64,000 nucleotides of DNA. Origin: Erythrobacter sp. (GTDB taxonomy: Bacteria; Pseudomonadota; Alphaproteobacteria; Sphingomonadales; Sphingomonadaceae). A program made the position numbers and the translations under genes. The stretch is taken from NCBI GenBank assembly GCA_024642335.1, contig JAHEBH010000005.1, forward strand, positions 1 to 64,000, given 5' to 3'. Positions 4,429 to 12,371 of this stretch are shown in pieces. The notes under the pieces were generated by a model. The model did no database searches. It was not told the origin of the DNA and saw only the letters and a list, made by a program, of their open reading frames with translations. The first letter of the stretch is position 1. Every line of letters starts with the position of its first letter.

Positions 4429-5328
4429 ATGAAACTTGCGGCAACGCTGATGGCAGGGCTCGCCTGCCTCGTATCCACCAATCTGGCGGCGCAAGAGGCG
4501 GAACAGGCGCCCGAACAACCCGAAGTAGTCCGTCCGCTCACGCCGATCCCGCGCGAGCGCCTGGAAGGCATGATCCCCAAGCATCCGGGATATCTGGGCG
4601 CGCTGGCGCCGGCCAATCTCAATGCCGACAGGCCCCCTGCCCCGATCAACATCACCGGCACATGGTTCATTGACCTGTCAAAGGGTTTTGCCGATTACAT
4701 GTTCGGCCCGCCCTATCCGCAATTCGGCCCCGAGGGGATCGAGGCGCTGATCGAGCAGCCGCTCGCCTCGGCCCGCGGGGAAACATATCGCGATTCGATC
4801 GGCCAATGCTACCCGCCGGGCATGCCGATGATCATGACGCGCGTCTGGCCGCATGCCTTCATCCAGATTCCCACCGCGGTCTACATGATCTCCGGCTTCA
4901 ACAATTCGGTCCGCACGATCTTCCTCGACGGGCGCGACTTCTCCGATCCGGACCTGGTGGTGCCGAGCTACAATGGCGAGAGCGTGGGCCATTTCGAAGG
5001 CGATACGCTGGTGGTGCACACCAAGTATTTCGAGACCGACAATCACTGGATCGACCTTGGCATCCCGATTTCATATGATTTCGAGATGGTCGAGCGCATT
5101 CGCCTGGTGGAAGGTGGCACGGTGATGGAAATCGAATACCAGCTGATCGATCCCAACATGTGGGAAGGCGAATGGAAATCGACCAAGCGTTTCCTTCGCG
5201 CCGATTACACTGACATTAATGAAGCAAACTGCATCCTGGCCTATAACGCCAACCTGCCGGGCACGGACCTTGGCAGCGAGACTGCCGAGGATCGCGGCAT
5301 GACCCAGATCGGGGAGGACGGAGAATGA
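4429..5328 (+). CDS. Secreted protein of unknown function (family A, copy 1)
   Basis: I do not recognise a named function. The 299 residues start with a Sec signal peptide (about 1-21, ending LAA before Gln-Glu). A proline-rich linker follows, then a domain with NITGTWF (about 75-80), a cysteine in GQCYPPG (C127), RTIFLDGRD (162-170), VGHFEGDTLVVHT (186-198) and a second cysteine (C268). The same landmarks, in the same order with two cysteines, occur in the proteins at 6120 and 11248, so the three are paralogues. The two cysteines could form a disulfide in the periplasm. The stop overlaps the start of the DUF6152 gene (ATGA), suggesting coupled translation of the pair. Confidence 0.85.
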   Translation: MKLAATLMAGLACLVSTNLAAQEAEQAPEQPEVVRPLTPIPRERLEGMIPKHPGYLGALAPANLNADRPPAPINITGTWFIDLSKGFADYMFGPPYPQFGPEGIEALIEQPLASARGETYRDSIGQCYPPGMPMIMTRVWPHAFIQIPTAVYMISGFNNSVRTIFLDGRDFSDPDLVVPSYNGESVGHFEGDTLVVHTKYFETDNHWIDLGIPISYDFEMVERIRLVEGGTVMEIEYQLIDPNMWEGEWKSTKRFLRADYTDINEANCILAYNANLPGTDLGSETAEDRGMTQIGEDGE

Positions 5329-5726
5329 GGTTTCTTGCAGCCGCGGCTTTGCTGGCGATGGGCGTGGCCCTGCCTGCCGCCGCGCATCACAGCTTCGCCA
5401 TGTTCAACCAGCGCCAGATCATGACTCTGGAAGGCACGGTGACGGAGTTCCAGTGGACCAACCCCCACGCCTTCATCGAGATGGACGTGCCGCAGCAGGG
5501 GCGCACGGTGCATTGGAGCATCGAGCTCAACAGCCCCAACAATCTCAAACGACAGGGCTGGAGCCGCGTATCGCTGCGATCGGGAGAGCGGGTAACCCTG
5601 CGCATGAATCCATTGCGCGATGGTGCGCATGGCGGACTTTTCCTCGACCTGGTGAAAGCAGATGGAACCGTGCTCGACAGCGGCATGCCGAAGAACGGCG
5701 AGCCGGTGAACGTGCCCAGTCTCTAA
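5325..5726 (+). CDS. DUF6152 family exported protein (family B, copy 1)
   Basis: A small protein of 133 residues with a clear signal peptide (1-20, ending PAAA). The predicted mature protein begins HHSFAMF. The rest fits DUF6152: EGTVTEFQWTNPHAFI (His48 in NPH), WSIELNSPNNL, GWSRVSL, GERV and a PLRDGAHGG segment. It looks like a compact beta-barrel, possibly OB-fold-like. No function is established that I know of. It overlaps the upstream family A gene by 4 bases and is followed after 16 bases by a second DUF6152 gene. The exposed His-His N terminus suggests metal binding, which is my inference. Confidence 0.88.
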   Translation: MRFLAAAALLAMGVALPAAAHHSFAMFNQRQIMTLEGTVTEFQWTNPHAFIEMDVPQQGRTVHWSIELNSPNNLKRQGWSRVSLRSGERVTLRMNPLRDGAHGGLFLDLVKADGTVLDSGMPKNGEPVNVPSL

Positions 5727-5742
5727 GGAAGGAGCGCTAGTG

Positions 5743-6123
5743 ATGAATAATGCCATGAAACAGATATTTGCCGCGCTTTCCCTGACTGCACTTGCAGTGC
5801 CTGCTGCGGTTTTTGCCCATCATTCCTATTCCATGTTCGACATGCAGCGCACCATCGTTCTCGAAGGCACCGTGGTGCAATTCCGCTGGTCGAACCCGCA
5901 TGCCTTCATCCGGGTCAACGCCCAGGTGGGCGGCAAGGCCGAGGAATGGTCGATCGAAATGACCAGCCCGAACAACCTGGCACTTGAAGGCTGGACCAGA
6001 CGCACCGTGCAGCAAGGCGACAAGGTGAAACTCCATGTCCACCCGCTGCGTAGCGGCGCACAGGGCGGTGCGTATGCCGGGATCGAGCTGCCCAACGGAT
6101 CATCGCTGGGGACTGTCGAGTGA
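5743..6123 (+). CDS. DUF6152 family exported protein (family B, copy 2)
   Basis: A tandem paralogue of the preceding gene, 126 residues. ATG 5743 is preferred over GTG 5740 because GGAG at 5731-5734 is 8 bases away. The signal peptide ends AVFA, and the predicted mature protein starts HHSYSMF. Conserved landmarks follow: EGTVVQFRWSNPHAFI (His53), WSIEMTSPNNL, GWTRRTV, GDKV and HPLRSGAQGGA. The close match to copy 1 in order and spacing indicates duplication. Its stop overlaps the next gene as GTGA, so the A-B-B-A genes probably form one transcript with coupled translation. Confidence 0.88.
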   Translation: MNNAMKQIFAALSLTALAVPAAVFAHHSYSMFDMQRTIVLEGTVVQFRWSNPHAFIRVNAQVGGKAEEWSIEMTSPNNLALEGWTRRTVQQGDKVKLHVHPLRSGAQGGAYAGIELPNGSSLGTVE

Positions 6124-6908
6124 GGATCGCTGCCGCGTTTGCCGCCGGGCTGATCCTTGCCTCCATTCCTGCCACAGCGCAGGTATCCTCCCCTGCGCCC
6201 GAAGGCATCGCCGCAAGCGACGCCGCCGGTTTTGCCAAGGGGCGCTTCCACGAGCTCGACGCACTGCCCGACTGGGGCGGGATCTGGTTCGTGTCCTTCC
6301 AGCGCGACCCCGATGCGCCGCCCCCCGCCGAGCTGAAGCTCAAGGGCGAATACCAGCTGCGGCTGCAGGAATGGCGAGCCGAAGTGCGCGCCAACAATGG
6401 CATCGAGCGCAGGCCGCGCGGCAATTGCTCGCCGCCGGGCCTGCCGGGCATCATGCGCCTGCCGCAATACCCCTACGAATTCCTGTTCACTCCGGGACGC
6501 GTCACCATCAATCAGGAAGCCTGGATGCAGACGCGCACGATCTGGACCGACGGGCGCGAACACCCGCCGCTGGAGGAGATCGACCCGACCTATCACGGCC
6601 ATTCGATCGGCCATTGGGAAGGCGATACGCTGGTGGTCCATACCGTGGGCATTTCGCCCGAGCTCGAGATCAATGACGGCGCCTACCATTCGGACCAGTT
6701 CGTGCTGGAGGAGCGCATCCACCTTTCGGCAGACGATCCGAATATCCTGATCAACGAAATGCGTATGTCCGATCCCGAGGCATTTGAAGAGCCGTGGGAA
6801 ACCACCGTGCAATACCGGCGCGACCGGCATGGTACGCTGATCGAATTCCAGTGTTCGCAGAACGATCGCAACCCGGTGGACGAAGAAGGCTACACGATTT
6901 ACGAATAG
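6120..6908 (+). CDS. Secreted protein of unknown function (family A, copy 2)
   Basis: This 262-residue exported protein starts at GTG 6120, overlapping the DUF6152 stop by 4 bases. The signal peptide spans about 1-20 (ending ATA). Family A landmarks are PDWGGIWF (50-57), GNCSPPGLPG (C103), RTIWTDGREH (139-148), HSIGHWEGDTLVVHT (161-175), a downstream His-Ser-Asp and EER, and C245. The two cysteines align with those of the copies at 4429 and 11248. No catalytic motif is obvious, and a substrate-binding or scaffolding role is as likely as an enzyme. It closes the A-B-B-A set. Confidence 0.85.
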   Translation: MRIAAAFAAGLILASIPATAQVSSPAPEGIAASDAAGFAKGRFHELDALPDWGGIWFVSFQRDPDAPPPAELKLKGEYQLRLQEWRAEVRANNGIERRPRGNCSPPGLPGIMRLPQYPYEFLFTPGRVTINQEAWMQTRTIWTDGREHPPLEEIDPTYHGHSIGHWEGDTLVVHTVGISPELEINDGAYHSDQFVLEERIHLSADDPNILINEMRMSDPEAFEEPWETTVQYRRDRHGTLIEFQCSQNDRNPVDEEGYTIYE

Positions 6909-6935: not shown

Positions 6936-8252
6936 CTAACGGCGCGTCGCGTCGAAGGCGAAGTTGACCGTGACGTTGCCGCCCAGGCCACCCGCGGCGT
7001 CACCCACGCCGATGCGGAAGGCATTGCGATCGATCACAGCCTGTCCGCTGACAGAGCGCCTGTTGCCACTGCCCGCCAGACGGAAGGCAAGCGATTGCGG
7101 ACGCGATGCTCCCTTCAGGGTCAGCGTGCCGTTGGCGCGGTAATTGCCATCCCCCTGGCTGGTGACAGAGGTGGAACGCCAGGTCGCGGTGGGGTTTGCG
7201 CTTGCGGCAAGGAAATCTGCGCCGCGCAGCATCTCGTCCTGCGTCGAATCTCCCAGCGTGGCGCTGGAAAGCTGGATATCGATGGAAATCTGCGCGGTGG
7301 CCGGATTGGCGGGGTCCATCGCGATGCGCCCGCCCCAGCTGCCGAAACTGCCGTTCATCTGCATGTCGCCGCTGGCGACCGAGAAGCGTAGCGACCCGCC
7401 GGGCTGGATGGTCCAACTGGGTGCGGGTCCGGCCGCTGCCTGAGCAGCAGCGGCTGCTTCGGCGGCTGCGGCAGCTTCTGTCGCAGCGGCATCGTCCGTG
7501 CCTGCCGCTTCATCATGATCATGCGTGCTGTGATCGTGTTCGCCTGCGGCTTCGCCGGTCGCGTCGCCTTCGGCTGCATCTTCATGCTCGTGTGCTTCGA
7601 CTTCGGTTCCATGATCCGTAGCGTGGTCATGCTCCTCCTCGCGCGGGCCGATACCGAAGAAGACCGCACCGCCCAGCAGGAATACGCCTGCTGTCAGCAG
7701 CATCGCCGGACCGGCGCCGCTGCCCGGGGCCATGCGCGAAAGATAGTTGTCGCCTTTCGTGAACTGGTGCCGCAGCGCCCCCGCCACATGCAGCAGGAAC
7801 AGGGCGATACCGATGAAGGCAATCAGCTCGTGCGCCTCCTCGAAGGTATGGTTGAGCGATTGCGCCACCGGCAGATGCGGCCAGGGCACAATGCCGAACA
7901 GCAATGTGGGGACATCGATCTCGGCACTCGACACGATCAGCCACCCGGTCAGCGGCGCGAGCACCATGAAGGCATAAAGCAGCACATGCACGGCAGAGGC
8001 GAGGAAACCGGCAAACCCCCGTTCCACCTTGGGCGGAGCCTTGAACATCAGCCGCCACACAAGGCGCAGGACGCTCAGCAGCAGGATGGTAATGCCGATG
8101 CTCTTGTGCAGCTGGTACAGTGCAAAGCCGCTGGCATCGTGAGGCATGGTGAAGCCGATCGCCATTTCGGCGGCGAGCGCGAATGCAATCAACCAGTGGA
8201 GCAGGATCGCGCCGCTCGAATAGCGCTGCGCCATGATGCTGTTCAGTCCCAT
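6936..8252 (-). CDS. Cytochrome b561 domain fused to YceI domain
   Basis: A 438-residue fusion. Residues about 8-170 are a cytochrome b561/Ni-Fe-hydrogenase-type b domain with four membrane helices and candidate haem histidines H19, H49, H141 and H155. A further helix (about 183-201) leads into an acidic, histidine-rich linker (nine His between 208 and 246) and an alanine-rich stretch. Residues about 278-437 form a YceI-like lipocalin fold (SWTIQPGGSLRFSV, ADFLAA, GTLTLKG, DRNAFRIG). YceI proteins bind isoprenoids, so a quinone-linked redox role in the periplasm is plausible. Met7 is an alternative start. A shorter unfused b561 lies at 19755. Confidence 0.9.
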   Translation of the reverse strand: MGLNSIMAQRYSSGAILLHWLIAFALAAEMAIGFTMPHDASGFALYQLHKSIGITILLLSVLRLVWRLMFKAPPKVERGFAGFLASAVHVLLYAFMVLAPLTGWLIVSSAEIDVPTLLFGIVPWPHLPVAQSLNHTFEEAHELIAFIGIALFLLHVAGALRHQFTKGDNYLSRMAPGSGAGPAMLLTAGVFLLGGAVFFGIGPREEEHDHATDHGTEVEAHEHEDAAEGDATGEAAGEHDHSTHDHDEAAGTDDAAATEAAAAAEAAAAAQAAAGPAPSWTIQPGGSLRFSVASGDMQMNGSFGSWGGRIAMDPANPATAQISIDIQLSSATLGDSTQDEMLRGADFLAASANPTATWRSTSVTSQGDGNYRANGTLTLKGASRPQSLAFRLAGSGNRRSVSGQAVIDRNAFRIGVGDAAGGLGGNVTVNFAFDATRR

Positions 8253-11247: not shown

Positions 11248-11985
11248 CTACTCTGCCCCAACACTCTGATATTCGAGCGCAAAACTCGGGTCGCATTCAT
11301 AAGGATAGACGTGCTCGCCCGCGCGCCTTGACCAGCTGATGAAGCGCGCGCCTTCATTCTCGATCACGGCCGGATCGCTGAACCACTGGGTCGAGACAAG
11401 GCGCGTTCCGCCGTCTACCAGCCGGTAGCGTTCCTGCATCACGATATCGTCCGTGTGATCGAGACCGTTATTGGTGATGGTCGATGCAGCGATATGGGTG
11501 GTGTCCACCACCAGTTCGTCGCCATCCCAGTGCCCGGTCGAAAAGCCCATCTTGGTGTGCGGAAAATCCTCACCCGGATGCTCGCGGCCATCCATGAAGA
11601 TCAGGCGCATCTGGTCGAAATATTCGTACTTGAAAACAATCAGATCGTCTGTCTGGTGCACTTCCCAAGGGAATGGTCCCTGGATGGAATAGACGATGCT
11701 GGGCGGCAGGCAGACGCGGGCAATCGTCATGTCGTTTTCGGCCTGCCAGGTTCCGGCATGCGCGGCGGCTTCGGGCGTCAGCACCAGTTCACCGAATTCG
11801 CCGCGCGGAAATTCTGCCGCACCGGCATCCTCCACCATCCCCACGCCATCGGGCAGCTTGTCCATCAAATCCTTCGGGCGATCCACCGGGCCGAAGTCGG
11901 GAGCCCAGAAACCGGACAAATCGGGATGATCCTGCGCGGCAACAGGGCTGGCAAGGAATGCCAGAACAAACAATGCCTTGCGCAT
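11248..11985 (-). CDS. Secreted protein of unknown function (family A, copy 3)
   Basis: The third paralogue, 245 residues, on the minus strand. The signal peptide is about 1-17 (ending VAA). Landmarks are PDLSGFWAPD (21-30), ARVCLPPS (C92), RLIFMDGREHPG (127-138), GFSTGHWDGDELVVDT (147-162), DHTDDIVMQERYRLV and C231. The order and the two cysteines match copies 1 and 2. ATG 11985 is chosen: the stop of the DUF6152 gene upstream and this ATG share one base (TGATG), a typical re-initiation junction. An upstream TTG at 11988 is less likely. Here the order is B then A, the reverse of the first half of the 4429-6908 set. Confidence 0.85.
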   Translation of the reverse strand: MRKALFVLAFLASPVAAQDHPDLSGFWAPDFGPVDRPKDLMDKLPDGVGMVEDAGAAEFPRGEFGELVLTPEAAAHAGTWQAENDMTIARVCLPPSIVYSIQGPFPWEVHQTDDLIVFKYEYFDQMRLIFMDGREHPGEDFPHTKMGFSTGHWDGDELVVDTTHIAASTITNNGLDHTDDIVMQERYRLVDGGTRLVSTQWFSDPAVIENEGARFISWSRRAGEHVYPYECDPSFALEYQSVGAE

Positions 11986-12371
11986 CAATCCTCACCCACC
12001 GTGAAAGCCTGACCGATTGGCGTGCCATCAAGCGTGGTGGCGCTGCGCAGGCGCAAATAGGGTTTGCCGTCACGCGAAGGCCAGCCATCGATCTTGACCC
12101 TGTCGCCCGCATGCAGGCTGCTCCGCGACCAGCCACGCCGCTGCAGCACGACAGGGGCCGTCGTCTCGACGCGCCACTTCTCGATATTGCCATCACTACC
12201 GATCACATCGAGTGCAATCGTGGCATGCGGATTGGTGAAACGGAAAGCAGTCACCTGCCCTTCAATCGCGACCGTACGCGTTTCGTCGAAGAAAACGGCG
12301 AAGGAATGGTGAGCCGCCGTCGAAACCGAAATCGCAGCCATCAGCACAGCAACGCCAGAGATTAAACGCAT
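11985..12371 (-). CDS. DUF6152 family exported protein (family B, copy 3)
   Basis: 128 residues with a signal peptide ending STAA and a predicted mature start HHSFAVF. It has EGQVTAFRFTNPHATI (His49), EKWRVETTAPVVL, GWSRSSL and GDRVKIDGWPSRDGKPYLRL. It is more divergent than the tandem copies at 5325 and 5743 (NPHATI, no SPNNL), but it keeps both N-terminal histidines and the NPH histidine. It is translationally coupled to the family A gene downstream. The Lrp/AsnC regulator upstream on the same strand ends only 5 bases before this start, so the three genes may be cotranscribed. Confidence 0.86.
   Translation of the reverse strand: MRLISGVAVLMAAISVSTAAHHSFAVFFDETRTVAIEGQVTAFRFTNPHATIALDVIGSDGNIEKWRVETTAPVVLQRRGWSRSSLHAGDRVKIDGWPSRDGKPYLRLRSATTLDGTPIGQAFTVGED

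Follow-up and report, generated by a model that had tools for sequence, protein, structure and literature searches.

DUF6152, a predicted exported protein family with a conserved N-terminal His-His pair, as a candidate metal-binding family on an OB-like fold

Proteins of the DUF6152 family are predicted to be exported as OB-like barrels whose mature chains begin with two histidines (His1-His2), and we give about equal weight for and against the proposal that this pair and a third conserved histidine (His28) form one metal site, with copper as its likeliest ion. DUF6152 is a Pfam family without assigned function that is present in dozens of copies in some genomes. If the proposal is true, N-terminal-histidine metal chemistry would extend to an OB-like barrel with an invariant His-His pair, and there would be a handle on two further uncharacterised families, GHW and DUF6644. 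No paper on DUF6152, PF19649 or DUF6644 was found by name in a literature search that had most subscription journals outside its scope.

DUF6152 genes in the window

Three ORFs of the window (the whole 64,000-nt stretch of DNA that was analysed) belong to DUF6152 (PF19649), as a sequence-only reading of this DNA had assigned them. Their E-values are given below; the bit scores of copies 1, 2 and 3 were 122.7, 108.6 and 100.5 against a family cut-off of 27 bits. DUF6152 was the only Pfam family matched by the three copies at E<=0.1. The features of the two loci are as follows.

4429..5328, + strand: secreted GHW family protein 1 (SVGHFEGDTLVVHT; no Pfam family); its stop overlaps the start of DUF6152 copy 1
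5325..5726, + strand: DUF6152 copy 1 (Pfam E 6.8e-36)
5325..5384, + strand: predicted signal peptide of copy 1, ending in LPAAA (from sequence; -3/-1 rule checked family-wide)
5385..5390, + strand: predicted His1-His2 of mature copy 1 (from sequence and family conservation)
5460..5468, + strand: Asn26-Pro27-His28 of mature copy 1 (from sequence and family conservation)
5740..6123, + strand: DUF6152 copy 2, start GTG 5740 or ATG 5743 (Pfam E 1.8e-31)
5818..5823, + strand: predicted His1-His2 of mature copy 2 (from sequence)
5893..5901, + strand: Asn-Pro-His of copy 2 (from sequence)
6120..6908, + strand: secreted GHW family protein 2; the AF2 model of 6183-6902 has a weak match to fatty-acid/retinoid-binding barrels
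6936..8252, - strand: cytochrome b561-YceI fusion (Pfam)
11248..11988, - strand: GHW family protein 3, partner of DUF6152 copy 3 (from sequence and family model)
11985..12371, - strand: DUF6152 copy 3 (Pfam E 5.8e-29), with His1-His2 at 12311-12306 and Asn-Pro-His at 12233-12225

Copies 1 and 2 are located within a tight four-gene unit, GHW-DUF6152-DUF6152-GHW (4429-6908), whose first and last junctions are overlaps of start and stop codons. Copy 3 and one GHW gene make up a two-gene unit (11248-12371). The translations have an A-x-A-type site directly before HHS[FY] in all three copies, as had been described: LPAAA/HHSF in copy 1, AVFA/HHSY in copy 2 and STAA/HHSF in copy 3. The histidine of Asn-Pro-His follows His1 by 27, 27 and 28 residues (mature positions 28, 28 and 29), close to the 26-27 claimed earlier. 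The two domains of the b561-YceI fusion are joined by a linker that is rich in Ala, His, Glu and Asp by eye and might bind metal itself.

DUF6152 is patchy across genomes and multi-copy in some. In profile searches, each count taking in the genome on which the search was centred, positive genomes numbered 16 of 142 in the window's class and 11 of 59 in its family, 12 of 149 in the phylum to which G202 (by name a Bryobacterales genome) belongs, and 4 of 185 in the class to which G201 belongs. None was detected in 14 control genomes. The window's genome has 8 copies, G322 has 18, G234 at least 31 and G202 has 57; G202 was assembled from a metagenome, which may have inflated its counts.

Conservation of the three histidines

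A total of 366 distinct DUF6152 copies were compared, two truncated ORFs being set aside for the N-terminal counts. The copies came from profile-searched genomes, from a scan of named genome contigs with a pattern that required NPH but did not require HH, and from stretches of genomes with many copies. Of the 364 copies whose N terminus is intact, 363 have His-His at mature positions 1-2, and 365 of all 366 have His28 of Asn-Pro-His. By comparison, 2.6% of the proteins with a signal peptide in the SignalP 6.0 training set have His at mature position 1 (PMC12537917). The alignment of many members that the sequence-only reading had proposed thus bears out its suggestion that conservation at the boundary goes beyond chance. 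Family-wide variation at the N-terminal histidine, which would have spoken against that reading, was looked for in the 364 copies and was not observed.

The sole exception, L215 (G202:C244:11976-12212), has Arg-Ala for His-His and Asn-Pro-Ser for Asn-Pro-His. That all three histidines are missing together in this one deviant copy hints that they work as one unit. Another residue, Glu48 (HMM numbering), is present in 335 of 366 copies, yet in only 2 of 5 HHGW rows compared.

To count copies blind to the N terminus, a model (A7) was used that starts at mature residue 31 and was built from 68 of the 90 rows of the DUF6152 alignment A3, some of them drawn from the same genomes on which the model was then run. 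A7 at E<=0.01 was compared with the full Pfam model at E<=0.001 (0.01 for the window's own genome) on 14 genome handles, as counts per genome and not position by position. The two counts were equal in ten handles (8, 7, 7, 18, 11, 8, 15, 10, 10 and 7). A7 gave fewer copies in G202 (56 vs 57), G200 (11 vs 12) and G205 (5 vs 6), and more in G234 (33 vs 31, where the full search had scored 31 of 43 candidates). Two of the 14 handles, G155 and G206, have identical coordinates and are therefore probably one genome. Since a model blind to the N terminus gave about the same copy counts, bias from the search profile is an unlikely source of the His-His pair. An earlier count of 193 of 193 copies with HH was set aside because the search pattern itself had demanded HH; the comparison of the 366 copies made no such demand. 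Alignments A3 and A4 were thinned by identity, and A4 also by length.

Export signal and predicted cleavage site

The region upstream of His1 fits the sequence rules for signal peptidase I. Residue -1 is Ala in 340, Val in 8, Ser in 7, Gly in 7 and Thr in 1 of 363 copies, and Pro is at -4 in 217 of 363. Further counts were made by such rules on 361 rows preselected by an HH...PH pattern, 360 of which had sufficient upstream sequence. The -3/-1 rule is satisfied at His1 in 348 of the 360; a hydrophobic stretch is present in 358, its end a median of 7 residues ahead of His1; and a twin-arginine-like pattern occurs in 23. From this we infer that cleavage falls exactly before His1.

Signal peptidase might instead cut elsewhere, after residue 5 or, in the group with Val at -1, before Trp/Tyr/Phe-Val-His-His, and His1 would then not be free. 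A further small-x-small motif is indeed present at +3/+5 in 315 of 360 copies, and Val, which is poor for signal peptidase I, is at -1 in 8 of 363. Each of these eight copies keeps HH and is the second DUF6152 of an adjoining pair, and in the FastTree tree they fall within one 10-tip clade (support 0.97). We consider cleavage elsewhere very unlikely, as Ala, Ser or Gly at -1 in 354 of 363 copies and Pro at -4 mark the -1/+1 boundary, and removal of HH with the signal peptide would leave its conservation unexplained.

Predicted fold and covariation

The mature window protein, modelled by AF2 with alignment A3 (90 rows), is predicted to be an OB-like barrel (pLDDT 91.3, pTM 0.83; mean of 81 over residues 1-10), with strands at 13-25, 28-37, 40-47, 69-77, 83-91 and 96-98. 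The best 50 of 1121 Foldseek matches comprise the mitochondrial SSB Rim1 and other SSBs, PriB, lysyl-tRNA synthetases, PolD/PolC and one T. brucei protein, all of which we take to be OB-fold proteins; the scores are modest (best E 7.1e-4, TM about 0.5). Weak Pfam matches of A3 members include TOBE and OB models. A PDB sequence search with DUF6152 and a GHW protein gave no match at E<=1, and NCBIfam gave nothing for either family at E<=0.1.

Pseudo-likelihood covariation (364 sequences, Neff 286) recovered antiparallel ladders. Among 4278 pairs, 29-49 ranked 2, 4-50 ranked 16 and 5-70 ranked 20. When the deviant copy was left out and pairs were ranked by mutual information, 4-50 again came 16th and stayed among the top 97 pairs in 97% of 60 bootstraps; 29-49 ranked 36, 5-70 ranked 671 and the direct pair 4-29 ranked 1150. 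As residue 29 faces 49, residue 50 should face His28, which places the N terminus plausibly near His28. The 4-50 signal is compatible with convergence of the histidines, and subfamily history could also produce it. In the proposed site the three histidines would lie close together in the fold. The covariation of 1-28 and 2-28 was discounted because these columns vary solely through the one copy that lost all three histidines.

Comparison with known N-terminal-histidine proteins

The core of LPMOs and CopC is a beta-sandwich, in contrast to the OB-like fold predicted for DUF6152. The earlier suggestion of a copper histidine brace had taken these proteins as its models, and a literal kinship with them did not hold. 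No profile match to an LPMO or CopC family was seen for the three window copies or among the 25 families listed of 50 matched by 90 members, and the Foldseek matches among the best 50 were of OB type. With LPMOs, DUF6152 has in common a conserved N-terminal histidine, its free end being predicted, and a further conserved histidine; it differs from them in its predicted fold and in its length of about 110 residues. CopC is secreted with His at mature position 1 and a later His (PMC7529816), and DUF6152 is alike by prediction. Unlike in CopC, the second histidine of DUF6152 is directly at position 2, and the neighbours of DUF6152 are mostly not copper genes.

Signal strapping has yielded further exported families with an N-terminal histidine, namely DUF4198, DUF6702, Ang-1 and Ang-2 (PMC12537917), and the main text of that paper does not mention DUF6152. 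All are uncharacterised exported families with a conserved His1. According to the paper, His1 is kept in 79% of DUF4198, 65% of DUF6702 and 100% of Ang proteins, whereas DUF6152 has an invariant His-His. The crystal structures of DUF4198 and Ang-1 described there are beta-sandwiches, in contrast to the OB-like DUF6152 model, and the anglerases Ang-1 and Ang-2 are joined to a membrane permease domain. The N-terminal-histidine metal proteins considered here (LPMO, CopC, DUF4198 and Ang-1) are beta-sandwiches. A literature search combining OB-fold, copper and N-terminal histidine found no such case. The candidate DUF6152 site would probably be on a fold new to such proteins.

Candidate metal site

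A metal site is the most economical account of three invariant histidines that include one at a predicted free N terminus and were once lost together. On this sequence evidence, some metal is probably bound at His1-His2-His28. Three histidines are a common ligand set for Zn, which speaks for a genuine three-histidine site that holds Zn or Ni instead of Cu. DUF4198, which also has His1, prefers Ni (PMC12537917). We consider Zn or Ni rather unlikely, since a free N-terminal histidine is expected in most cases to favour chelation of Cu(II) over that of other ions, as stated in PMC10952591. The same expectation makes copper the likeliest ion, and as the metal at this site copper may have an even chance. 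The histidine brace is described there as Cu held in a T shape by the NH2 and pi-N of His1 and the tau-N of a second histidine; in DUF6152, a further conserved histidine is available as a ligand in His2 (363/364) and in His28 (365/366).

GHW partner family

The GHW proteins are named after the motif SxGHWEGDTLVVxT, and no Pfam or NCBIfam model matched the three that the window encodes. Partner genes were counted within 1.5 kb of DUF6152, starting from the 361 rows selected by the HH...PH pattern and excluding 46 copies with short flanks. A GHW gene was found beside 255 of 290 copies that do not start with HHGW, vs 1 of 25 HHGW copies. GHW genes are present in 80 of 86 stretches, these being the window, five more stretches of its genome (one of them, L028, without DUF6152) and 80 named-contig stretches. 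GHW matches numbered 16 in the window's genome and, with no more than 150 candidates scored, at least 144 in G202, 109 in G283 and 95 in G234; two HHGW genomes, G028 and G131, had no GHW match. DUF6152 and GHW are fused in four copies, three of which (L009, L212 and L265) keep the histidine motifs. The fourth fusion is L215, which is without all three conserved histidines and is a natural negative control.

The AF2 model of a GHW protein (pLDDT 93.5) resembles CRABP-II and bile-acid-binding barrels in Foldseek, with modest scores (best E 4.6e-4, TMq about 0.35, rmsd about 7 A). The match to retinoic-acid- and bile-acid-binding barrels suggests that GHW is perhaps a barrel for a hydrophobic ligand.

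DUF6644 and the HHGW branch

The HHGW copies form a single clade of 26 (support 0.79, FastTree tree). A gene of the DUF6644 membrane family was found within 1.5 kb of 22 of 25 HHGW copies vs 31 of 290 non-HHGW copies. Among the HHGW-start copies L304-L323, a DUF6644-like membrane gene was seen in 18 of 20 neighbourhoods. Such genes are present in 18 of the 86 stretches, and G202 has 12 DUF6644 matches.

DUF6644 appears faintly CopD-like in sequence. Its alignment (A5) comprises 46 of 51 references, and at E<=1 these 46 members matched DUF2214 (17 members, best E 2.7e-5), SirB (7, 9.1e-5), CopD (7, 0.001) and UPF0093 (3, 0.0098). One DUF6644 gene, G149:C1:1074807, matched the CopD profile with E 3.5e-5, below the profile cut-off. 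In hhalign, DUF6644 gave weak matches to six CopD proteins (probability 4% and 11%, E 0.009 and 0.003; controls 0.2-0.7%). One DUF6152 branch is adjoined by a weakly CopD-like membrane gene, an arrangement reminiscent of CopC and CopD. YcnI (DUF1775) and YcnJ are likewise reported to pair an N-terminal-histidine metal binder with a putative membrane copper importer; YcnI is a mono-histidine-brace protein of a Bacillus copper operon and belongs to a family other than DUF6152.

The main rival to a catalytic role starts from this arrangement. DUF6152 would bind Cu or Ni in the periplasm and deliver the ion to DUF6644 without catalysis, as in CopC-CopD, YcnI-YcnJ or anglerase-HupE, and this is perhaps the role of the HHGW branch. 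In favour of it are the DUF6644 genes beside HHGW copies, the weak CopD, SirB and DUF2214 matches, the TonB-receptor-like genes (identified by eye) in 29 of the 86 stretches, and the view of the authors of PMC12537917 that their four families are binders or transporters rather than enzymes. As an account of the whole family we hold it to be a minority possibility: DUF6644 is near few of the non-HHGW copies, and 57 matches in one genome, among mixed neighbours, are hard to square with a general metal chaperone.

The histidines might also be structural, or a docking surface for GHW or DUF6644, with no metal bound. The recurrent protein partners speak for this, as does the absence of any copper- or other metal-homeostasis family among the 25 listed of 125 Pfam families matched by 116 sampled neighbours in multi-copy genomes. 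We regard it as quite unlikely, because near-absolute conservation of three histidines amid varying residues, together with their joint loss, is typical of metal ligands, and because the same histidines are kept beside two different partner families.

Gene context and proposed role

In the 86 stretches, where gene clusters were named from single Pfam-scanned members, b561-type genes were found in 12 and RPE65-type oxygenases in 11. Of 158 neighbour proteins in multi-copy genomes, 120 were drawn and 116 analysed; they included the metallo-beta-lactamase fold (10), MFS (5), glyoxalase/dioxygenase (3) and cytochrome c of the CBB3 model (3).

For the non-HHGW branch we prefer a GHW-assisted metal-dependent step, on the strength of the paralogue expansion, the fusions and the catabolic-type context. 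In the periplasm, DUF6152 would use its metal for a redox reaction on a small hydrophobic compound bound in the partner GHW barrel, as part of catabolic gene sets. In the HHGW branch beside DUF6644, a CopC-CopD-like metal hand-over would be equally plausible. In its boldest form, which we think on the whole unlikely, the proposal is that DUF6152 and GHW would together be an extracytoplasmic mono-metal (copper) oxygenase or peroxygenase of a new class, with dozens of paralogues in some Acidobacteria. The His1-His2-His28 site on the OB-fold would attack hydrophobic small molecules (terpenoid, steroid or aromatic) in the lipocalin/FABP-like barrel, with electrons from DUF6644 or b561-YceI.

A plasmid of Sphingobium sp. 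TomTYG65 carries GHW-DUF6152-GHW-DUF6152 adjoining two DUF6644 genes, a TonB receptor and annotated monooxygenases. This strain appears in work on bacteria that degrade steroidal saponins, which in its passages on the strain does not link these genes with the trait (PMC10653915). On an 88.8 kb plasmid of Croceibacterium atlanticum (L342), a DUF6152 pair is accompanied by a TonB receptor, a MarR regulator and, in the place usual for GHW, a hypothetical gene; a cation P-type ATPase gene is located about 9 kb further along.
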